Shown: positions 2,551 through 29,747 of the stretch, in pieces | Position numbering within the stretch: position 1 is the stretch's first letter | Layout: each line of letters opens with the position of its first letter | NCBI GenBank assembly: GCA_018668695.1 | Contig: JABJBS010000166.1 | Coordinates: 1 to 41,982, forward strand | Origin: Deltaproteobacteria bacterium | Lineage (GTDB): Bacteria > Myxococcota > XYA12-FULL-58-9 > JABJBS01 | Length of the DNA stretch: 41,982 bases | Direction: 5' to 3' | Notes under the pieces: generated by a model | The model's input: only the letters and a program-made list of their open reading frames with translations | What the model was told of the DNA's origin: nothing | Database searches by the model: none | Made by a program: the position numbers and the translations under genes

Positions 2551-5500
2551 TTTTACTTTAAGGCGACCCACAAGGCCTTCGTAGTTTTGGTCAAACTCAC
2601 TGATACCATAGTGGTCCATGTGAGCCTTGACCGCGCTTAAAGTGGTGTGAGCGGAAACCTTGTAGTCCTGCTTATCCGAACCACCGCTTTTCTCAAAGAG
2701 TTCAATAAAGCACTCGACTTGATTAAGTTGACCAATGCTCATCATCCGGGCGTCCCCCAATCTCGTCCAGAGATGAACCACTCTTCCAAAGACCACAGAT
2801 GCCTTGAGCCAATCTCCCGTCAGTGCCGCTACACATGCAAGATTCCCATCTGAATGAGCGAGTAATTCAACTTTAGAGCCAACTTCTCGTAACTCTTTCG
2901 CCTTTTGATACATCGTCTGCGCGGTATCGAGTTCTTTTTTCCCGAGACTAATCGTTCCGATGGTATCGTAGTGGCGCGCCAATGCCTCAGCCATCGATGA
3001 GCCCTCAATCTCTAAGCCCTCGTATTGAGAAATGATGGACCTCGATATTTTCAATGCCTCGTCTTCCTGCTCCATTTCTCGAAGCGCCCAAGCAATCGAC
3101 CCCTGAATATCAATCCGAGTGCATGGTGCAGATCCTGCATCGGAAAACCGAGAATATGCTTCCCGGTAAGCTACAATCGCCTGTTCAGGCGCGCCTCGTG
3201 TACGATAAACGTCGCCTCGCACTTTGTGTAGCTCTGCAGCAAACTTTTCAAGTTCCGACTCTTGTTCCCCATCTCGCTTCTCGGGCAATTGAAGCAGCTG
3301 AAAACCACAATCTATGGCAGCCATCGACTCATCAAGCTCACCTTGATGATAACAAACCCGTGCCCTTGCCTTATAATACCGAACACGTTTCGAACGCTCA
3401 GCAATACGCCCAATACTCTCCCCGGAATAAACATCCAATATATCTTGAATCTCGTCTAATAGATCCATTGCCTCTTGAAGAGAATATTCATCAAGACGAC
3501 TCTCAGCTCCCAATAAAAAACAAGTCACTGCACAATCAGGTTTGTCTCCTAATTTATAGTGGCGCCCAAGTAGAGCTTGCTCAATATTCATATTAACCAG
3601 GCTGAGCGAGTGACCCACCGATTCATGAATCCGTTTACGCTCTCGTTGAACCAATGAGTCATAACAGACCTGTTGAAAAATCTCACTTTGAAAACGGTAC
3701 TCCACGGCTCCTTCGAGCACCGATGAGCCGCGGCGGTGAAGCACCCCCGCTACCCGCAGCGACTGTAAGGCCCGCTGGATTTTGTATTCAGCGATGAGAT
3801 CTGCGCAAACCTGAACCATCAACCTGTCCCAAAAAACTCGGCCTACCACCGCAGCTCTTTGCAATAAGATTCGCTGAACAGGGCTCATTGCATCCAACTC
3901 TGCCTGAAGAGCGCCATGGATCGTTGGGGGTAGAACCATATCTTCTGGTTTCTCTGATACGATTGCCCAGGTGCCTAGTTCAGCATCGATAGCAAGCAGT
4001 CCCAGAGCCTGAAGAGAGCGTAGATGCTCTAGAACATAGAGCGGCCGGCCCTCAGCTTGGCCAACGATCCACTCCGCAACCCAAGCAGGAACCTCTCCCG
4101 CTGGCGAGAGGATTTCTTGAACCATTCTCGTAATGAAAACATCTTCCAGCGGTATCATTTCCAATAAACCGACCTTTGAGCCCTCAAAGAGTAACCTTGC
4201 TGATTCTTGATTTTCAGTGTTCGTCTGCATTTCCCAGCACACAAGGGTACGGGCTTTATCTCCCTGATCTCCAAGGAGGTATCTTACAAATTCTTGCATA
4301 GACTCGTCGGCTAGATGAGCATCCGCCACCACCAACACACACACAGTGTCCTCTGCTATAGCCTTGAAGAGATGCGTCAACGCCCTAAACAAAGCCTTGC
4401 GGGTCAAGTTGGTCGCATTGCCGCTCTCATGGAAGACATCGTTACCAGCGAAAAAGTTGTCCAAAAGTTCCAAGCCGGCGCCACTGATCGTTTCAGGGCC
4501 GGCCACCGCTAAGGATGATGAGCCAAGTAATGTGTGGATACCATTGCCGACTGACTCAAACTGAGTTTCCAGATAACTTTCCAAACCCTGACGAATCGGG
4601 GCCATAAAAAGATTAACGCTGCGCGTGCACCGACCATACACAATCCTTGCGCCGTGACGCTCCGATGCTACCCGTGAGAATTCGGTAACCATCCGGCTCT
4701 TTCCTGAGCCAAGAGTACCCGCAACCTTCACAAGATGAGCTGTTGAAACACTGGCTACAGTTTCTAGAGAATCCAGCAATAGATCGAGTTCGCCATCGCG
4801 TCCCAAAAACGGTACAGCCTGGCCCTCGAAAAAATCAGCCATATCGGCGATTTTCATTTCACGTTCTCGAACCACATAAAATGCTTGAACAGGTTTCGAC
4901 TTGCCCTTCACATCGAAGGTACCTGCGTCCTCTGTCACATAAGAGTTCAATATAGAGCGCTGCGTATTGGATGCCACAAGAACTCGGCCGCGCTCACATG
5001 CCGACTCCAGGCGACTCGCAAGATTAACCGCATCTCCCATCACCGTATAATCGCGATGCCCTTGGCCTCCCACAAAACCAGCCACCACCATACCGGTATT
5101 GAGCCCAACGCGAATCTCTAGCTTGCTGCCTATTTCCTTTTCAAACCGCTTCGACAACTTACCCACTTCACACTGGAGCTCCAAAGCAGACCGAACAGCC
5201 CTTTCAGCATCATCTCCGTAAGAACGGGGTGCTCCGAAAAGAGCCATCAAACAATCACCGATGTATTTGTCGATGGTTCCGCCGTTTTTCACAACAACAT
5301 CAGTCATGGCGTCAAAGACGGTATTCATGATGTCGCTTACTTCGTCAGGCTCAAGTCGTTCTGACAATTCTGTGAAACCAGAGATGTCGGCAAACAACAT
5401 GGTAACAACCCGCTTCTCAGATGCTTTTTCGCTCCCAATCGGTAATTTAGAAATTTGGTTATTCTTAGTTGGGGAAATGAAGTCCCGAGCCGCTTGGCCC

Positions 5501-5787
5501 TGAACGCCGCCATCTGCCGCTACACCCTCGTCATTTCTAACCAGATGAATCCCAGAGTCCCCGGGTCTGACGATCTGCTGAACCGAGGCCACAGGAACCA
5601 CATCCGAGGCGTGCTCTGAGTTATCAAAACCGCATCCACACTGATCGCAAAAACTTCCACGGGCCGGAGTGGGTAAACTGCAGGATTCACAGATACGCAG
5701 AGGCCAGACAGGGACACCACAGGCGTGGCAAAACCTAGCATTATGGCGAATATTCATCTCGCAGGCTGTACATTGGTCCAACATCAT
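2542..5787 (-). CDS. Zinc-ribbon / class III adenylate-guanylate cyclase / AAA ATPase / TPR regulator
   Basis: The 1081-residue protein has four parts. Two zinc ribbons (Cys6/9/20/23 and Cys33/36/47/50) are followed by a linker. A class III nucleotide cyclase domain spans about 125-310, with metal-binding Asp134 (FADISGF) and Asp178 (YIGD), Lys174 before it, and 'DYTVMGDAVNLASRLE' supplying purine-specifying Asp and catalytic Asn and Arg. A P-loop (AGTLGSGKS) near 355 opens an AAA/STAND-type ATPase. The C-terminal third is TPR-like helical repeats. The Lys...Asp pattern favours ATP, so cAMP, but this is inference. This architecture is widespread in Myxococcota. The cyclase appears catalytically complete. 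ATG 5787 was chosen because it precedes the first zinc ribbon; its Shine-Dalgarno is weak. Confidence 0.9.
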   Translation of the reverse strand: MMLDQCTACEMNIRHNARFCHACGVPVWPLRICESCSLPTPARGSFCDQCGCGFDNSEHASDVVPVASVQQIVRPGDSGIHLVRNDEGVAADGGVQGQAARDFISPTKNNQISKLPIGSEKASEKRVVTMLFADISGFTELSERLEPDEVSDIMNTVFDAMTDVVVKNGGTIDKYIGDCLMALFGAPRSYGDDAERAVRSALELQCEVGKLSKRFEKEIGSKLEIRVGLNTGMVVAGFVGGQGHRDYTVMGDAVNLASRLESACERGRVLVASNTQRSILNSYVTEDAGTFDVKGKSKPVQAFYVVREREMKIADMADFFEGQAVPFLGRDGELDLLLDSLETVASVSTAHLVKVAGTLGSGKSRMVTEFSRVASERHGARIVYGRCTRSVNLFMAPIRQGLESYLETQFESVGNGIHTLLGSSSLAVAGPETISGAGLELLDNFFAGNDVFHESGNATNLTRKALFRALTHLFKAIAEDTVCVLVVADAHLADESMQEFVRYLLGDQGDKARTLVCWEMQTNTENQESARLLFEGSKVGLLEMIPLEDVFITRMVQEILSPAGEVPAWVAEWIVGQAEGRPLYVLEHLRSLQALGLLAIDAELGTWAIVSEKPEDMVLPPTIHGALQAELDAMSPVQRILLQRAAVVGRVFWDRLMVQVCADLIAEYKIQRALQSLRVAGVLHRRGSSVLEGAVEYRFQSEIFQQVCYDSLVQRERKRIHESVGHSLSLVNMNIEQALLGRHYKLGDKPDCAVTCFLLGAESRLDEYSLQEAMDLLDEIQDILDVYSGESIGRIAERSKRVRYYKARARVCYHQGELDESMAAIDCGFQLLQLPEKRDGEQESELEKFAAELHKVRGDVYRTRGAPEQAIVAYREAYSRFSDAGSAPCTRIDIQGSIAWALREMEQEDEALKISRSIISQYEGLEIEGSSMAEALARHYDTIGTISLGKKELDTAQTMYQKAKELREVGSKVELLAHSDGNLACVAALTGDWLKASVVFGRVVHLWTRLGDARMMSIGQLNQVECFIELFEKSGGSDKQDYKVSAHTTLSAVKAHMDHYGISEFDQNYEGLVGRLKVKST

Positions 5788-5991
5788 TGCGAGTTCAGCC
5801 TATCACGATCTCATAGACCAGAGCTAAGCCAACAGGCGACTCGCCGCACTGCGGCATACGTCTAGAAGCCTCTTTGTCCACCGGGTCAATAAAACACCGC
5901 TGGATCTGAACTTTCAAACTAAATACTGTGAAACGAGACACGATGCTCCGGATTAGAAGCCGGTCCATGTACTTGAGAAGGGACGCATTTT

Positions 5992-7848
5992 TTGCTGATT
6001 GTCCACGTTGAACCGCCGTACTACGCGAGCCAGGAAGCTGAACAACACGTCTACCGAACCGAACAACCGTGCCGGTCGATCGGCGCTCTTGCGAATACTT
6101 ATATCGCCAGTGGTTCATTTCTCACACCCGCCATCCAAACGATGATGTGGAGTGCTGACCTTCTCATTCTCTGCGATACCTCTGATGCTGACTACCTGCC
6201 GATATTGGCCCACAGGCGCGCTCGAGGCTTACCTACAATATTCGAAATCAACAGTAATATCTCCGTGGCCCAACCTTGGATTCGAGGCGGGGTTTTGGAC
6301 CCAAGAGAACAAAGTACCTACTACCAATTGGCCAGTCAGGCAGAAACGCTTATTTTCGCGACCTCGGCGCTCGCGGAAAATTTTGAGCACTTGGCCACCC
6401 ACTGCGAGATTCTTCCAAGCCAACTCCGGGAAACCTTCGAAGCACCAAGCCCGCCCAATAAAGCAGCAAACGATGGCAACCAAAAAATTAGAATTGGATG
6501 GGGCGGCTCTAGAGGGCAGCGCGAAGACATTATCTACGCACTGCCTGCCTTAAGGCGCATTCTCGAAAATCATCCGGAGGCCACTTTGGCTATTATGGCC
6601 AACCCTGCAATCGAACATCACTTTGCCAATATCCCGTCCAACCAACTCGAATTCCACATGCCGGGAGCACTGGAGGAATACGTTTCATTCTTAAAAGGTT
6701 TGGATATTGGAATCGCTCCGCTTCTGCCTTCTGAATTCAACCATTGTCGTCATGATGTTAAATTTCTCGAGTATGCAGCAACCTCAACCGTTCCCGTTTG
6801 CTCCAACCTGCCGGTTTATCGTAACTCCATTAAGCATGGTGATACCGGACTGCTCTTTGATTCTGAACAGAACTTAGAGGTTGAGCTGGAGAAGCTGCTC
6901 ACCAATAAGGCCTCGATTAATAAGATTGCCAGCAACGCTTATCATCATGTCCAACAGCACCGCATGGAGTCACAGCATGCACACAAACGCATGGAGATTT
7001 ACGAAGAAGCTTGTAGTCGGGCACGGATGCTCGATACCAGCAGCGGCCGCCGCGATAGCTTTATGACGGCCTATGAGAGTCACGAAGAAGCCCCAACCTA
7101 CCCCAAGACACGCTACCGCAAGATCAAATATGGACGCATGGAAAAGCTACTCTACAACGGGCAAGCAAGCATCACCTCAGACTTAGCTGAGCGTATTCAC
7201 AACTTGGAACGCGCCCGCGACTTAGAGCCTGAATTTTACTTGCCTCATTTATGGCTCGGGAAAAACTACCCAGAGCCTGACCAAGCAGCTCAAGCACTGC
7301 GACAGGCGCGGGAACTAAGCCGAAAATCCTGCAGCGTTTATTTTGAATTGGCAAAAGTATTTGAGGAAGCTGGCGACATAGATCTTGCTCGTCGCACAAT
7401 GAGACAGTCCGTGGAGAATGCTCCAACATACGCTGTCGGCTTAGACCTGCTAGCAGATTATGCCCTATTGGAAAGCGAACTCATCGCAGCCGAGCGGCTT
7501 CGTCAAAGGGCGCTGGAAGCCAACCCTTGGTACCGAGTGCCGGCCCGTAAGCTTGCCCAAGCTGCCTGGGACGAAGGGCGTATGGAGGTTGCGCGTAAGT
7601 TACTCCAAGAAAACATCGAACACTCACAGCCCATTTGGACAGACCACTATCTACTGGGGCAAATCTATGCCTCCGAGCACCGCTACGAAAATGCCGTCAA
7701 ACATCTTGAAAAAGCTCAAGACCTTGAACCCGATTCCAGAGAGATCCTCACAACTTTGAGCCGGGTTTATCTCGCACTTGGAAAACCGGCCGAGGCTAAA
7801 CTCATTATGGCAAAACTCAAACAATCACCTCGGCGCAATGTGAAGTAG
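5992..7848 (+). CDS. GT-B glycosyltransferase (group 1-like) fused to C-terminal TPR repeats
   Basis: The protein has 618 residues and a TTG start with AGAAGGGA about 10 nt upstream. Residues 1-360 form a GT-B fold: an N-terminal half without a clear motif, then 'IRIGWGGSRGQREDI' at the start of the donor-binding half, and the GT4-type segment at about 249-283 (HDVKFLEYAAT, VPVCSNLPVYRNSI, GDTGLLF). From about 400 on there are TPR units ('NLERARDLEPEFYLPHLWLGK', 'AVKHLEKAQDLEPDSREIL'). It probably transfers a sugar onto a surface polysaccharide or protein, but donor and acceptor are unknown. It stands alone, diverging from the cyclase gene, and no other glycan gene is adjacent. Confidence 0.82.
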   Translation: MLIVHVEPPYYASQEAEQHVYRTEQPCRSIGALANTYIASGSFLTPAIQTMMWSADLLILCDTSDADYLPILAHRRARGLPTIFEINSNISVAQPWIRGGVLDPREQSTYYQLASQAETLIFATSALAENFEHLATHCEILPSQLRETFEAPSPPNKAANDGNQKIRIGWGGSRGQREDIIYALPALRRILENHPEATLAIMANPAIEHHFANIPSNQLEFHMPGALEEYVSFLKGLDIGIAPLLPSEFNHCRHDVKFLEYAATSTVPVCSNLPVYRNSIKHGDTGLLFDSEQNLEVELEKLLTNKASINKIASNAYHHVQQHRMESQHAHKRMEIYEEACSRARMLDTSSGRRDSFMTAYESHEEAPTYPKTRYRKIKYGRMEKLLYNGQASITSDLAERIHNLERARDLEPEFYLPHLWLGKNYPEPDQAAQALRQARELSRKSCSVYFELAKVFEEAGDIDLARRTMRQSVENAPTYAVGLDLLADYALLESELIAAERLRQRALEANPWYRVPARKLAQAAWDEGRMEVARKLLQENIEHSQPIWTDHYLLGQIYASEHRYENAVKHLEKAQDLEPDSREILTTLSRVYLALGKPAEAKLIMAKLKQSPRRNVK

Positions 7849-8270
7849 GTGCTCGGCTCATCACGGTTCGCTCAAGCGAACTTCGGATTCTTTCGAACTC
7901 TACCGTTTTGAGTTCACGATCTTTAAATCAGAGACAGAAAAACACACTCTAAACCTAAAAAGATCACAGGGCTAAAACAGGGTCATGATAAACCCAATAA
8001 CGACATGCACTTACACCCGCTCCTGGGTTTAACCCAAGAGGATTCAAGCCCGATCCCTGGCAAACCCTCCAAAAACAAAAGTGCGTTAAACCCCAATTAT
8101 TAAACGATTTTTTAAGAAATGGGGTTTTCAGTACTCACGGGCTGTGACATCCGCCCTTCCGATAGAGGGAAAAATAAAAATACAAATATCGCCCCGGTAA
8201 GCGTCAAACTTTTGAGGCCCGGAGCAACCGAATAATTGGTAGCACTTAAGCCTCAGCGCAGAGAGGAAAG
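7849..8270. other. Repeat-rich 422-bp intergenic region
   Basis: No coding sequence is visible. Two small hairpins follow the glycosyltransferase stop: GTTCGC-TCAA-GCGAAC (7866-7881) and GAACTC/GAGTTC (7895-7900, 7910-7915). Neither has a T tract. Then come several copies of an AAACCC-type motif: 7990-7995, a GGGTT-T-AACCC palindrome at 8025-8035, one in 8062-8066, and AAACCCCA (8088-8095), which pairs perfectly with TGGGGTTT (8120-8127). A further hairpin, CCCTT/GAGGG, lies at 8154-8169, followed by an A-rich stretch and a G+C-rich leader. The region may hold a complex promoter or a structured leader for the gene at 8271. Confidence 0.5.
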
Positions 8271-23874: not shown

Positions 23875-24264
23875 GTGGATAAAAGAACAACCACAAGCGG
23901 AGCGGGGTTGATTTTGAAGTTGCCGTGGGACCGAGACAATCGCAGGAAATTCGAGCGTATCCGGGTGCTTGTGCCCTGTAAACTCATTGCTGGCGACAAG
24001 ACATTTCTTGGTAAGACTTACGATATTGGACTTGGCGGTGCTAGGTTTGACGCAGGTCTAGAACCCGATCTTCCAAATCAAGTACTCGAAGACTTCGGCA
24101 ACCTTCATCTGCTCTTGCCGGAAATAGAAATCGTTATTCACAGTAAGATCTTACGAGCTGCCTCAACTTTTGTCGCGCTTCAATTTACCACCGAGAACCC
24201 TACGGAGACGATGAAGATTCTCAAAGATTTCCTCGAAACTCAGGTAAGTTACATCAACCTCTAA
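23875..24264 (+). CDS. PilZ-domain protein
   Basis: The protein has 129 residues from GTG 23875. TTG 23908 (MILKLPWDRD) is a good alternative because GGAG lies five bases before it, while the GTG has no visible Shine-Dalgarno. The PilZ motifs are RxxxR in 'NRRKFERIRV' (about 22-28) and 'YDIGLGGARF' (about 50-59), where Gly replaces the usual Ser of DxSxxG. Binding of c-di-GMP is possible but uncertain. The next gene downstream has its own promoter, so it is probably a single transcription unit. Confidence 0.8.
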   Translation: MDKRTTTSGAGLILKLPWDRDNRRKFERIRVLVPCKLIAGDKTFLGKTYDIGLGGARFDAGLEPDLPNQVLEDFGNLHLLLPEIEIVIHSKILRAASTFVALQFTTENPTETMKILKDFLETQVSYINL

Positions 24265-24399: not shown

Positions 24400-25377
24400 A
24401 TGACTCAAGTCCAAACATACCTCGATCAGTTCGCTGCCTTGGTGCCAAAGCACGGTGGGCCCATACCTTGGACCCTTTCTTTCGACTTTGGAAAACACGA
24501 CCAACATATGGTTTTTGGTGCCATTACACATGGTAACGAGACCGGAAGCCTCCCCGGCTTCGTCCAAATGGCGCAAGCCCTGGCAAACGGTGAGTTTGAG
24601 TACGGCGGCCGCGTCACCCTGATGCTTGGAAATATCGAAGCCTGTAAAAAAGACCAACGCTTTCTTGAGGCCGATCTCAATCGAGTCTTCCTTGAGGAGG
24701 CTCCAGAGAGCCTCGAAAAGAAGCGGGCTTTTGAAATGATGGAAGTCCTCAACCAGGCCGACGTCTTCATCGATTTTCACCAAACCATCGAGCCATCTGA
24801 AAAACCGTTTTACATTTTCCCTTTTCATGAGTCTGGATACCAATGGGCTAAACTGCTCGGCGGTGGCACCAGCTTGATCACACGTGACTCCCGCCACGCT
24901 TTCTCCGCAGGTTGTGTTTGCGCGGATGAGTTCGCTCGCAACCGCGGTATTCCCGGCATCACATTGGAAATGGGCCAAAAGGGGATCACGGAAATTGCCA
25001 AAGAGCTTACATGGCAAACCATGGAACGCGCATTGAACGCATTGAATGCCGTCGCCGCGGGACAGAGCATCAAAGCACAACTCGAAAGCTCAAACCCGCC
25101 GGAATTTGAATTTATCGAAATTCAATATGCAGAAAGCTTCTCCGGGCCCGGTAGCCAGCTTGAACCAGGCCTTCTCAACTTTACCTGGGTTGAAAAATCC
25201 CAAGTGATTGGTAAGCACGACGACGGGTCCGATATGGTAGTGCCGCAAGCGGGTTACTTGGTCTTTCCAAAGTATCCACAGCGTGACGAGCATGGCATTG
25301 TTATCGGCCGAGCGCCGGGACAAATCTATAATCTTGCAGTAAAAATGGATGAACATCCATTAATTGCATTTGCGTAA
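24400..25377 (+). CDS. Succinylglutamate desuccinylase / aspartoacylase-like zinc deacylase
   Basis: The protein has 325 residues from ATG 24400. It shows the AstE/AspA zinc carboxypeptidase-type motifs: 'THGNETG' with His44 and Glu47 as zinc ligands, 'DLNRVF' for substrate binding, 'FIDFHQT' with third ligand His127, and 'ITLEMGQKG' with catalytic Glu190. All key residues are present, so it should be active. The family removes N-acyl groups from amino acids (N-succinylglutamate, N-acetylaspartate); the substrate here is not predictable. It heads an operon-like run with a DUF493 protein and two receptor proteins. Confidence 0.86.
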   Translation: MTQVQTYLDQFAALVPKHGGPIPWTLSFDFGKHDQHMVFGAITHGNETGSLPGFVQMAQALANGEFEYGGRVTLMLGNIEACKKDQRFLEADLNRVFLEEAPESLEKKRAFEMMEVLNQADVFIDFHQTIEPSEKPFYIFPFHESGYQWAKLLGGGTSLITRDSRHAFSAGCVCADEFARNRGIPGITLEMGQKGITEIAKELTWQTMERALNALNAVAAGQSIKAQLESSNPPEFEFIEIQYAESFSGPGSQLEPGLLNFTWVEKSQVIGKHDDGSDMVVPQAGYLVFPKYPQRDEHGIVIGRAPGQIYNLAVKMDEHPLIAFA

Positions 25378-25387
25378 AGAGCAACAC

Positions 25388-25693
25388 GTGACGACAAAAT
25401 CCATAAAACCAATCAGCGTACCCTCTATTGAGGCCCTCGAAACAGCGCACTCGTTTCCGGCCCAGTACCTCATCAAGATTATTGGTCCTGATACTGAAGC
25501 CTTTCGCGCCGATGCGAAAACAATCTGCGTGAAACACTTGGGACCCGATGCACAAATCGAAACGAGTGAGCGCCAAAGTAAAACCGGTCAACACTTGGCA
25601 TTAACACTCAGGTTTCAAGTTGCTACCCCACTGCTGGTCCAAGAAATTTATAAAAACCTAGCTCAACTCACCGGACTTAAGTTTATAATTTAG
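25388..25693 (+). CDS. DUF493 (YbeD-like) small protein
   Basis: The protein has 101 residues from GTG 25388, with AGAG seven bases upstream; TTG 25364 would overlap the deacylase end. It matches the DUF493/YbeD family in length and pattern: 'FPAQYLIKIIGPDTEAF' at the start, a helix, then 'ERQSKTGQHLALTLRFQV' and 'IYKNLAQLTGLKFII', an ACT-like fold. E. coli YbeD has no firmly established function; a regulatory ACT-like role is possible. It is followed after 8 bp by the first 7TMR gene. Confidence 0.8.
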   Translation: MTTKSIKPISVPSIEALETAHSFPAQYLIKIIGPDTEAFRADAKTICVKHLGPDAQIETSERQSKTGQHLALTLRFQVATPLLVQEIYKNLAQLTGLKFII

Positions 25694-25701
25694 CTGCCGA
25701 T

Positions 25702-27744
25702 ATGACACGCCTATCTTTAAAGATATTCTCACTGCTCTTTGTCCTGAGCACTTCTCTCCTTGCTACGACCGCGCATGCCAAACCTGCCCCAGATATTTAT
25801 ATCAGTGAGTCTAAAACGTCCTTGGGAGCCGATGCTTTAATCTTGAGGGGCTCACCCACTCAACTAAACGCAGAAGCAATACCTGAACTCTATGCATCAG
25901 ACGCATTTCATATATCAAACAACCATACACCATCTTTAGGCATAACCGATGATGTCGTTTGGGTAGCGTTACCCATCAAATTGATATCTTCAAAATCAGG
26001 GAAATTCTATCTAGAACTCGGTTACTCTCAGCTCGATTCGGTCACTCTCTACCAACTCACAGAGAACTCGCTCGAACATCTTCACTCTACTGGCGATACA
26101 TACTTTTTTAATCAGCGCCCGATCATCCATCGCCACTTTATCTTCCCCATTGACCTCGCTGATTCTCAAACCAACACATTCTTCTTGCGAATAGAGACAA
26201 CGGGCTCCATGCAGTTCCCGATTAATCTTTGGACTCAACGCGCATTTTGGGACCATGACCAAGGCAGACTATTCCTCCAGGCAATCTACCTCGGAATCAT
26301 TCTCGTTATGGTCATCTACAATCTCTTTCTCTTCGTTAGTACTCGGGAGCGCGTCTATCTTTATTATATATTAAGCATCTCTTCGATCGCAGCCATGCTT
26401 CTTACACTCACAGGCATGGGTTTTCAGATGATCTGGCCCGACGCGCCCGCATTCAACAACCTTGCGACCCCATTGTTTATTACACTGGCCACCATCTTCT
26501 CTGCACGCTTTGCGGACGACTTCCTCTCACTTCCAATTCAATTACCTTGGGCCTCACGTATTCTGCGATTCATTGCTTTTGCTGGCCTGATTAATCTCTT
26601 CATCATTCCCTGGGCGCCCTACACCTTTAATATTCGTCAATGCGGAGTCGTTTCCGTCTTTTGCCTTGTCATGAACCTAACCGCTGGCTCTATCTGTTTT
26701 CAAAAAGGCGACCGCTCGGCCGGGTATTATATGTTGGCATGGTCCACATTTCTAATCGGCGGCCTGAGCGTGGCTTTGAACAAATTTGGCATCATTAGCA
26801 AAGCTCCTGCATCGGAATATGCTCTACAAGTAGGATCCGCTCTGGAGGTTATTCTTCTCTCGTTTGCCTTGGGTTATCGAATGAACCTACTGGAAGAGCA
26901 AAATCACGAGGCCAACCGGCAGCGCACGATGCTTCGCAAAGAGATGACGAGCCACCTACAATCACGATTGCACATCTTTTCTAGAGTCACCTCGGAACTG
27001 AATAAACCTCTCGGCGAGATGCATCGTTTGCTGCGCTTACTTTCAGAGAACATGGTCGGCGCCTCAAGCGTTGTAGACTTTCTCTTCCCGGGCAGTATCG
27101 GCGATGACAACAAAACCAAAATCGATCTTGAACGCAGTGTCGAAGAGCGAAGATCCCATTTGAAGACTTTGGATGAGTCATTTAAGAACGTCTCTCTTGT
27201 GGTCCGCGAACTTCAAGGCATGGGAGTAGTGGGTGGCCGGCTCAACGAAAAAATATCTCTGCAACACCTCATTAAAAATGCACTTGAGCGCGTGAAAAAT
27301 GAGCACGGTGTACGCAATTATCAGAAGATTAGTTTGAAGATAGATAACTCAAACCTAGACGATATTGGGCATACCTTTGGTAATCCATACATCATTGGAC
27401 ATGCCACCTCCGCAATCATCTTAAATGCTTTTACTTATTGCCTCGACTCCCTCAATCCCTCCGTACTGATTGTCGTCACCGAAGGCGCTCAAACTAGAAC
27501 CATTACTGTTAAGAATAATGGACCGGCCATACCTCTTGATACGGTATCCACTCTCTTTGATCATTCTCGGTCTGTTACGGGCAACCAAGCTACCAGCTTA
27601 CCGGTCCTGAGAACCGTTCTGCAGCAACAGGGCGCGAATGTTCGTCTGCTCGATTCAGGCAACCAAAGTGGATGGGTCCAATTTGAGATTATTCTACCCA
27701 AGAATAAAGCGATAAGACCACAATCGGAAAGGACTGTGGCATGA
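25702..27744 (+). CDS. 7TMR-DISM receptor with degenerate histidine-kinase domain (first copy)
   Basis: The 680-residue protein has a signal peptide (1-26), a periplasmic 7TMR-DISMED2-type sensor domain (about 40-185), seven membrane helices (about 190-390, opening 'LQAIYLGIILVMVIYNLFLFVSTRERVYLYY' in parts), a coiled stretch and a kinase-like region. In the dimerisation helix the usual S-H-E-L-R-x-P-L reads T-S-E-L-N-K-P-L, so the phosphoacceptor His is Ser431. The HATPase-like part keeps an Asn (LNAFTY), has 'VKNNGPAIP' for the G1 box, and its G2 box is degenerate (ATSLPVLRTVL). It probably does not autophosphorylate. It sits 8 bp after the DUF493 gene and overlaps the second copy by four bases. 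Confidence 0.85.
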   Translation: MTRLSLKIFSLLFVLSTSLLATTAHAKPAPDIYISESKTSLGADALILRGSPTQLNAEAIPELYASDAFHISNNHTPSLGITDDVVWVALPIKLISSKSGKFYLELGYSQLDSVTLYQLTENSLEHLHSTGDTYFFNQRPIIHRHFIFPIDLADSQTNTFFLRIETTGSMQFPINLWTQRAFWDHDQGRLFLQAIYLGIILVMVIYNLFLFVSTRERVYLYYILSISSIAAMLLTLTGMGFQMIWPDAPAFNNLATPLFITLATIFSARFADDFLSLPIQLPWASRILRFIAFAGLINLFIIPWAPYTFNIRQCGVVSVFCLVMNLTAGSICFQKGDRSAGYYMLAWSTFLIGGLSVALNKFGIISKAPASEYALQVGSALEVILLSFALGYRMNLLEEQNHEANRQRTMLRKEMTSHLQSRLHIFSRVTSELNKPLGEMHRLLRLLSENMVGASSVVDFLFPGSIGDDNKTKIDLERSVEERRSHLKTLDESFKNVSLVVRELQGMGVVGGRLNEKISLQHLIKNALERVKNEHGVRNYQKISLKIDNSNLDDIGHTFGNPYIIGHATSAIILNAFTYCLDSLNPSVLIVVTEGAQTRTITVKNNGPAIPLDTVSTLFDHSRSVTGNQATSLPVLRTVLQQQGANVRLLDSGNQSGWVQFEIILPKNKAIRPQSERTVA

Positions 27745-29747
27745 AGTACTTCTCTGTGCTCTTGGCTGTACTGTCCTTTCTAGCACCGCAGTACGTTTCT
27801 GCTGATCCTGTCAAACCCTGGACTCTTGGAAATACGAACACTGAACAACTCATGGGGAATGGGTCGCAGTTCATATTTTTCGACCACAACAACGACCTAA
27901 CTCCATTAGAAGCCATGCGATATGCTCGAGAAGGAAAGTTCACAACAGTCGCAATCGAGACTCCCTCTTTGGGTTACACCGAAACGACAACTTGGATTTA
28001 CATCAAGTTAGATGCAGCGAATATTTCCGCTAAGGATTGGTACATCGTACTCAGAAACCCTTCCCTGAGTTTAATCGACGTCTACGAGTCTTCAGGCAGC
28101 CGAACCATTCCAAGGTGGCGAACAGGCAGTACTCGCTCCTTTTACTCCCGTCCGGTTTCTCACCGAGACTTTCTCTTTCCGGTCGACTTCAAAGTTCACA
28201 CAAGCCAAGAGTTTTTAATTCGGGTTCGCTCTGCAATTGCAATGCAACTCCCTCTCTCAGTACAAAGTTACGATGGGTTTTGGGCTGACGAACAATACCA
28301 CCAAGCTCAGATAGGGCTCTTCTTCGGTATGGCCATCGTCATGGTCATCTTTAATCTCTTCATTTTTCTGATGATTGGTGACCGTGGCTATATTCCGTAT
28401 GTCATCTTTGTCATTTCACTGACAACATTCCTCGGTACCATTGAAGGGCTCGGCTACCAGTTCTTTTGGCCGGAGAGTTCGCGTCTAAACGGGGCCGCAC
28501 TCACGGTATCTCTCGCCGCATCTGCCGCATCTGGACTGCTCTTTGTAAATTGGTTCCTCGAAATGGAGACCATTCGGCCTCGAACCTCTATTGCTCTAAC
28601 CCTTGTAACAAGAATGCTCTGGCTTGTGGCTTTAGCTGGAATCTTTATGCCCTTTAGCACCGTCATCAAGCCCGCCATTGGACTGTCTGTTCTCGGCGTA
28701 ACCATCGCATTTGTGACGGGCTTAGCGGAATGGAAGAATGGCTCGGCCACTGCAAGGTATTTTACCATCTCGTGGCTCGGCATCGTCTTTGGCGCATTCG
28801 CGCTTGCATTTAGTAAGCTGGGTTTTATTCCTCGTACTACTATTACAACCTACAGCTTGCATTATGGAGCCGCCGCGGAATTCGTGATGCTGGCCATGGC
28901 TTTAGGTGCTCGAATCAATCGTGTGCGAGAAGAAACAGTACAAGCCGACGCTGAATCCGAAAAACTACGCCGCCAACTCAATAAAGAGATGGAAGCCAGG
29001 ATTCAAATCTTCTCAAATATAGCTCAAGCACTGGATAAACCACTGCGTTCCCTGGAGGATGCTGCCGGGCATTATCGCCAAAGCTTAGCAAGCGCGACCT
29101 ACATCACCGACTCCGTGTTCGACCTCTCAGATGGTACCACACAGGTGAATGATATGAGTCTGCGCGCAGAAAAGAACAATATCGACCAGCGTCATCACCT
29201 AACGGCGCTTGAGCGGCATTCCCAAAGACTGGCCGACGTTGTTGAGGAGATGAATGCTTTAAGCAACGAGCCAAAGAAATCAAACCGCCTTATCTCGCTC
29301 AACGAGCTTTGGGAAAGAGCCATCGAAGATAGCCGCCAATCGGTTGGAGATGTTTTTAGTCATGTTCAATTTAAAGAAAATATCTCCAGCGCTTCCTCAC
29401 AGGTTCTGGTGCATGGAAACCCGTTTATTCTAACAGATGCACTGAACTCGATGCTTACCTACGCTATTCGGCATGCGCTCACCGGCAGAATGCCTGTCTT
29501 ACACGTGCGCATGACAGAGGAAAGCAACTGCGTTCGATTACTCTTCGGCAGCAATGGTAATCCCATCTCGCCAGAACTGGCTTTTGAAATCTTTGATGTT
29601 GAAAATGAGTCCATTCAAACTGACTTAGCTGTCACGCGAGCAATTATTCAACAACAAGGTGGCAATATCATTCTACGCAACCCTGGGCGTGCAGACCGAG
29701 CCACCGAGTTTGAGTTCACATTGTCCAAAGAGAGTTCCGGTTTATAG
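27741..29747 (+). CDS. 7TMR-DISM receptor with degenerate histidine-kinase domain (second copy)
   Basis: The protein has 668 residues and is a paralogue of the preceding gene with the same layout: signal peptide (1-21), DISMED2 sensor (about 35-180), seven helices (about 190-390, 'IGLFFGMAIVMVIFNLFIFL') and a kinase-like region. The H-box equivalent is 'AQALDKPL', with Gln429 in the place of His; the N-box Asn is replaced by Tyr (LTYAIRH), and the G2 box has no Gly (TDLAVTRAII). Both catalytic halves look inactive. ATG 27741 overlaps the preceding TGA (ATGA), so translation is coupled. The two may form a heteromeric receptor; that is inference. Its 3' end overlaps the convergent amidohydrolase by six bases. 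Confidence 0.85.
   Translation: MKYFSVLLAVLSFLAPQYVSADPVKPWTLGNTNTEQLMGNGSQFIFFDHNNDLTPLEAMRYAREGKFTTVAIETPSLGYTETTTWIYIKLDAANISAKDWYIVLRNPSLSLIDVYESSGSRTIPRWRTGSTRSFYSRPVSHRDFLFPVDFKVHTSQEFLIRVRSAIAMQLPLSVQSYDGFWADEQYHQAQIGLFFGMAIVMVIFNLFIFLMIGDRGYIPYVIFVISLTTFLGTIEGLGYQFFWPESSRLNGAALTVSLAASAASGLLFVNWFLEMETIRPRTSIALTLVTRMLWLVALAGIFMPFSTVIKPAIGLSVLGVTIAFVTGLAEWKNGSATARYFTISWLGIVFGAFALAFSKLGFIPRTTITTYSLHYGAAAEFVMLAMALGARINRVREETVQADAESEKLRRQLNKEMEARIQIFSNIAQALDKPLRSLEDAAGHYRQSLASATYITDSVFDLSDGTTQVNDMSLRAEKNNIDQRHHLTALERHSQRLADVVEEMNALSNEPKKSNRLISLNELWERAIEDSRQSVGDVFSHVQFKENISSASSQVLVHGNPFILTDALNSMLTYAIRHALTGRMPVLHVRMTEESNCVRLLFGSNGNPISPELAFEIFDVENESIQTDLAVTRAIIQQQGGNIILRNPGRADRATEFEFTLSKESSGL

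Follow-up and report, generated by a model that had tools for sequence, protein, structure and literature searches.

Gene layout and predicted structure of the tandem receptors

The window analysed here is a stretch of 41,982 nucleotides (nt) from a Deltaproteobacteria bacterium (contig JABJBS010000166.1, assembly GCA_018668695.1), which shows on its forward strand two overlapping genes, P1 and P2, encoding receptors of the 7TMR-DISM family. Both proteins contain a sensor domain, a seven-helix membrane domain (7TM) and a histidine-kinase-like transmitter that appears to be catalytically dead, formed by a dimerization and histidine phosphotransfer (DHp)-like part and a catalytic and ATP-binding (CA)-like part. 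The features of the pair are as follows, with protein positions in amino acids (aa):

25702-27744, + strand: P1, 7TMR-DISM receptor with a dead histidine-kinase-like transmitter, 680 aa (open reading frame (ORF), Pfam, alignment)
25852-26235, + strand: 7TMR-DISMED2 sensor domain of P1, aa 51-178 (Pfam, E 3.6e-30)
26272-26880, + strand: 7TM domain of P1, aa 191-393 (Pfam, E 1.1e-48)
26887-27735, + strand: signalling helix and DHp-like plus CA-like module of P1, aa 396-678 (profile A1, Foldseek)
27741-27744, + strand: ATGA, in which the P1 stop and the P2 start overlap by 4 nt (sequence)
27741-29747, + strand: P2, second 7TMR-DISM receptor with a dead transmitter, 668 aa (ORF, Pfam, alignment)
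27873-28265, + strand: 7TMR-DISMED2 sensor domain of P2, aa 45-175 (Pfam, E 3.1e-25)
28314-28913, + strand: 7TM domain of P2, aa 192-391 (Pfam)
28920-29744, + strand: DHp-like plus CA-like module of P2 (profile search, alignment)

Both frames run uninterrupted, and just 5' of the P2 start the sequence GGAAAGGA was picked out by eye as a candidate ribosome-binding site. An initial annotation of this DNA had described the two frames as intact and joined by the ATGA, and had assigned the sensor and seven-helix parts to both proteins; coordinates, overlap and domains all proved right, the 7TMR-DISMED2 and 7TMR-DISM_7TM matches being strong and above the Pfam cut-off (166 and 105 bits in P1, 134 and 89 bits in P2). 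The N-termini of both proteins look signal-like by eye. HATPase_c falls below its cut-off (24.1 bits in P1 and 16.2 in P2, versus 26.4), HisKA gives no Pfam match in either protein, and neither does Response_reg, so that receivers following the transmitter, a trait of RetS, are absent. A sequence search of the PDB with P1 gave no match. The 3' end of P2 shows a 6-nt convergent overlap (29742-29747) with a minus-strand gene encoding an amidohydrolase.

AlphaFold models, based on 19 aligned rows of paralogues from this genome, show a mean predicted local distance difference test (pLDDT) score of 81.7 for P1 and 80.8 for P2. Both contain a beta-rich sensor, whose strands precede the seven helices as in the periplasmic sensors of 7TMR-DISM receptors, then the seven helices, a long signalling helix that leads to the DHp hairpin, and finally a CA-like domain whose lid is a low-confidence loop. 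With the P1 tail, Foldseek matched histidine kinases including ZraS, CpxA, HK853, DivL (4q20) and RetS (6dk7), and DivL was matched by profile as well; the global TM-scores were low, because the match is limited to the tail and the hinge angles differ. The predicted folds of P1 and P2, DHp and CA parts included, are retained along the entire proteins.

Catalytic positions and the clade of degenerate modules

When P1 and P2 are aligned with paralogues from their own genome that carry the His, Ser431 of P1 and Gln429 of P2 fall in the phosphoacceptor column, as had been proposed, and no other His of either protein falls there. The position four residues downstream (H+4), which the initial annotation had missed, is Lys in both (K435 in P1 and K433 in P2). 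In HisKA proteins, an Asn or Thr at H+4 is linked to phosphatase activity (EnvZ-type kinases); since P1 and P2 both show Lys there, their phosphatase chemistry is very probably also lost. The N-box Asn, described as lost in the second gene, is indeed replaced by Tyr574 in P2 and is present in P1 (N575). Asn605 (P1) and Ser604 (P2) stand in place of the G1-box Asp, Ala and Pro, respectively, in place of the second G1 Gly, and the GxGLG of the G2 box is absent from both, so neither protein shows the G1 DxGxG and G2 boxes of a HisKA kinase. To judge from these positions, P1 and P2 lack the residues for autophosphorylation and His phosphotransfer and, having no His, cannot be phosphotransferases or relay phosphate.

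The tails might nevertheless bind nucleotide, accept phosphate at a residue other than the missing His, or work as Ser/Thr kinases, an activity reported in certain plant ethylene receptors without the His. Such cryptic activity would agree with the retained fold and the N-box Asn of P1, and a His-less kinase with an intact ATP site can still phosphorylate a partner, which may apply to another protein of this genome, C359b2, described below. However, P1 and P2 have both lost the G1 Asp, the second Gly and the G2 lid, P2 has also lost the N-box Asn, and the lid is poorly modelled in both, which makes this explanation very unlikely. A non-kinase role is favoured instead, because the catalytic residues were lost while the frames, the sensor, the 7TM domain and the kinase-like fold were retained.

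A profile of the tail retrieved exactly six strong members from the genome itself: P1, P2, C95, C319, C34 and the C-terminal module of C267 (C267-C), where the C numbers, here and below, are labels of other contigs or proteins of this genome. These six modules form one clade in the tail tree (support 100/99). The G1 Asp is replaced in all of them (by Asn in four, Ser in P2 and Gln in C267), as is the second G1 Gly, and G2 is degenerate in 6/6, with a GTGL remnant in C34. The His is retained in four: C95, C319, C34 and C267-C. These four fit the ChpT/Spo0B type, unlike P1 and P2, which lack the His. ChpT contains a DHp domain and a degenerate Bergerat domain which has lost the lid and does not bind ATP (PMC3433190), and there is also a membrane-bound Spo0B (PMC12826061). 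In the C95 contig, a gene encoding a Caspase-fold (Peptidase_C14) protein lies upstream of the 7TMR module and near an ECF-sigma-like gene (L031:7007-8626).

Beyond this genome, a search of 195 phylum genomes at E<=1e-25 found no degenerate module, and the genome_contigs scan gave best matches of only 21-27% identity. In the 50 genome_contigs matches inspected, the His and a box resembling G2 are always present, and G1 is canonical with rare exceptions (one Glu for Asp and one G1 unmatched by the motif search); among 398 genomes of another phylum, the 15 best matches are canonical throughout. Since the ATP site is broken in all six modules, and the top matches from other genomes are canonical, the alignments make this break a feature of the clade, and the losses of the His and of H+4 alone specific to P1 and P2. 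The proposal that both genes had lost the same catalytic residues stands for the His and extends to H+4; the ATP-site losses, including the G2 boxes correctly described as degenerate, are found in His-bearing paralogues too and do not set the pair apart.

P1 and P2 are about 24-26% identical, and by score each of them is nearer to C95 than to the other. The tail tree joins them at 84/84, with the warning that long branches meet, and an [N/D]KPL motif common to both fits a common ancestor; the tree of the N-terminal sensor and 7TM part did not resolve their placement. A recent tandem duplication was rejected on the 24% identity, the unresolved N-terminal tree and the weak 84/84 join. The two genes, previously taken as duplicated, are paralogues, and their divergence marks them as old rather than recent ones.

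The terminal branches of P1 and P2 in the C-terminal tree (1.75 and 1.88) are about twice that of C95 (0.84) and are the longest in the clade apart from that of the C267 module. Beyond the genome itself, no P1 orthologue was found in 58 relatives (E<=1e-60) or in the phylum set of 195 (E<=1e-45), nor did the genome_contigs scan, which covers close relatives only, yield one. Branches of this length and the lack of orthologues in the phylum would suit paralogues drifting after the clade lost ATP binding, with little or no transmitter function and perhaps with the sensor and 7TM domain still in use. Yet both ORFs, of about 2 kb each, are free of stops and frameshifts, and decay is unlikely because neutral drift to about 24% identity would have brought stops. 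P1 and P2 also retain the clade-invariant CA residues (the NP pair, the NG of G1 and others), and their identity to each other is the same in the CA and 7TM parts, 26% each. We therefore consider relaxed relics improbable, and a maintained non-catalytic receptor is preferred to them.

Other overlapping tandems, receivers and upstream genes

The genome, a draft of 424 contigs, contains 30 7TMR-DISM_7TM domains, and none was found at E<=1e-10 in the seven same-order genomes searched, so the 7TMR-DISM expansion is lineage-specific. Four co-directional overlapping tandems with 7TMR-DISM kinases were found, two of which touch contig ends, and each of the four carries a defective module. Those other than P1/P2 are:

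L037:3638-5755 and 5745-7922, overlapping: C359b1/C359b2, tandem of 7TMR-DISM kinases
L182:1-2622 and 2583-6017, overlapping: C281a/C281b, tandem of proteins with a kinase-receiver-kinase layout (HK-REC-HK)
L187:10412-10927: C232 contig-edge fragment with a very degenerate transmitter module

The defects of C359b1 and C359b2 are complementary: the first shows the His and a weak G2, and the second shows Asp for His and a complete GTGLGL. In the second tandem, the terminal kinase module of C281a has Met for His and C281b is intact; the contig start truncates the C281a sensor, which gives no 7TMR Pfam match. The C232 fragment, cut by the contig edge, shows a destroyed G1 and an ATGA overlap with the downstream, intact C232 7TMR kinase. 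Among the 29 kinases examined, His-less modules (Ser, Gln, Asp and Met) occur only in overlapping tandems, and none occurs among the 22 unpaired 7TMR kinases. All four His-less genes are within the 7 scorable paired ones (hypergeometric p 0.0015; counting P1 and P2 as a single case raises it to 0.006), in a test which is post hoc, uses our own paired and unpaired counts and is limited to the survey of 7TMR kinases and their tandems. The defective module in every tandem and the confinement of His-less modules to tandems are new here. Since the three further tandems each carry a defective module, P1 and P2 are more likely to form a heteromeric receptor. A wider reading, which we put forward as possible but doubtful, is that obligate heteromeric 7TMR-DISM receptor-kinases are assembled in this lineage from co-translated, overlapping pairs whose catalytic parts are shared out between the partners or lost. 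The examples would be C359b1/C359b2 (the His in one and the full ATP site in the other), C281a/C281b and the dead module ahead of C232, with P1/P2 as the purely allosteric end point.

Related modules in the genome lie close to receivers and kinases. The C267 protein (L035:8185-11676) contains, fused in this order, a 7TMR-like region, an active histidine kinase, a receiver and the C-terminal degenerate module. C34 (L033:1882-8177) shows an apparent operon encoding a Y_Y_Y kinase, a receiver-cyclase, the His-bearing, ATP-degenerate 7TMR module and another receiver-cyclase, the two cyclases being 56% identical to each other. Downstream of the C232 kinase lies a receiver-cyclase with 50% identity to one from C34, and another lies downstream of C66, an intact 7TMR kinase. 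The His-bearing modules could act as phosphotransfer or docking elements, because they sit with active kinases and receiver-cyclases. C111 (L199:8611-9774) encodes a receiver-cyclase of the C34/C232 type with no adjoining kinase, a possible partner for orphan modules.

With so many 7TMR-DISM domains in one genome, many of them with close transmitters, P1 and P2 might each dimerise with, or sequester, an active or His-bearing 7TMR kinase encoded elsewhere, for example C66 or C95, the nearest relative of both. There are precedents in the binding of GacS by RetS (PMC7695008) and in Corynebacterium, where a ChrS pseudokinase variant improves signalling via the related kinase HrrS and native heterodimers have been shown (PMC9491836). 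That variant arose as a truncation in laboratory evolution, whereas P1 and P2 are dead receptors which nature has maintained as a tandem. The neighbour is the likelier partner in view of the coupled translation and of the recurrence of overlapping tandems, so this action in trans seems rather unlikely, and assembly of P1 with P2 is preferred.

Three genes upstream of P1 lie on the same strand:

23875-24264, + strand: PilZ-domain protein (Pfam), with no evidence of membership in the unit
24400-25377, + strand: AspA/AstE-like deacylase (AstE_AspA_cat, Pfam E 2e-16)
25388-25693, + strand: DUF493 protein, 8 nt 5' of P1 (Pfam E 9.8e-13); a GTG start is proposed, and the longest ORF begins at 25364

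The AspA-like gene, whose product was rightly called intact (motifs HGNE, DLNR, DFHQ and TLEMGQ), ends 10 nt before the proposed DUF493 start and is probably on the same transcript as P1/P2; a scan of the locus for promoters and terminators gave results no better than shuffled sequences. The initial annotation had suggested that the deacylase and the DUF493 protein make the receptor ligand or are regulated by the receptor. The short same-strand gaps and the intact AspA motifs would suit such a metabolic unit of four genes, in which the AspA and DUF493 proteins produce the ligand or control it. However, 27 further DUF493 loci from the phylum all lack a nearby AspA gene, and in a relative from the same order the AspA orthologue (in two fragments) is adjoined by a PurU-like gene and cysS, with neither DUF493 nor a 7TMR gene beside it. 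Because the AspA-DUF493-receptor order was not seen in related genomes, a role in ligand metabolism finds no comparative support and is hardly to be expected.

Possible mode of action of the pair

The reading that we prefer, and towards which we lean slightly, is that P1 and P2 are a co-translated pair which assembles as a ligand-sensing, non-catalytic receptor acting by protein contact. Translational coupling would lead to P1 and P2 being made together, and the two proteins would assemble with each other as the receptor. A ligand at the periplasmic DISMED2 domain would alter the DHp/CA surface, and the altered surface would bind or release its partner, either a receiver domain or an active kinase from another locus. 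This scheme is modelled on DivL with DivK~P or RetS with GacS.

DivL of Caulobacter, in which the His is changed to Tyr, is similar to P1/P2 in having a histidine-kinase fold without the phosphoacceptor and in acting by binding. It differs in its PAS sensors, which take the place of 7TMR-DISM, in a CA domain that still binds ATP weakly, in being a single gene and in having a known partner. It shows neither kinase nor phosphatase activity, and binds DivK~P via the docking face used by response regulators (PMC4211667). The Pseudomonas hybrid kinases of the 7TMR-DISM type, RetS and LadS, share with P1/P2 the 7TMR-DISMED2 sensor, the 7TM domain and a kinase-fold tail, but they are not tandem, and P1/P2 have no receiver. 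RetS retains the His and carries receiver domains. As a 7TMR-DISM receptor, it inhibits GacS partly by non-enzymatic contact (PMC7695008).

Several points weigh against a contact-acting pair. Neither a response regulator nor an active kinase is encoded beside P1/P2, P1 retains the N-box Asn575, and the long terminal branches also fit relaxed constraint. No P1 orthologue was found in the phylum genomes that would show selection (the ratio of nonsynonymous to synonymous substitution rates, dN/dS) or a conserved gene order for the pair. The initial annotation had pointed to a conserved non-kinase role, such as a heteromeric receptor. Its sequence observation was confirmed and its interpretation is partly supported: the lost chemistry, the kept fold and the three further tandems agree with a non-kinase heteromer, and the conservation across genomes was not borne out.

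Histidine kinases are usually taken as homodimers, and few natural pseudo-histidine-kinases are understood. This genome offers a natural series from an active kinase, through a phosphotransfer-like module, to a fully dead receptor, and through its repeated tandems with lost phosphoacceptors, which lie within or next to a clade of ATP-dead transmitters linked to receiver-cyclases, the question of heterodimeric sensor kinases becomes directly testable.

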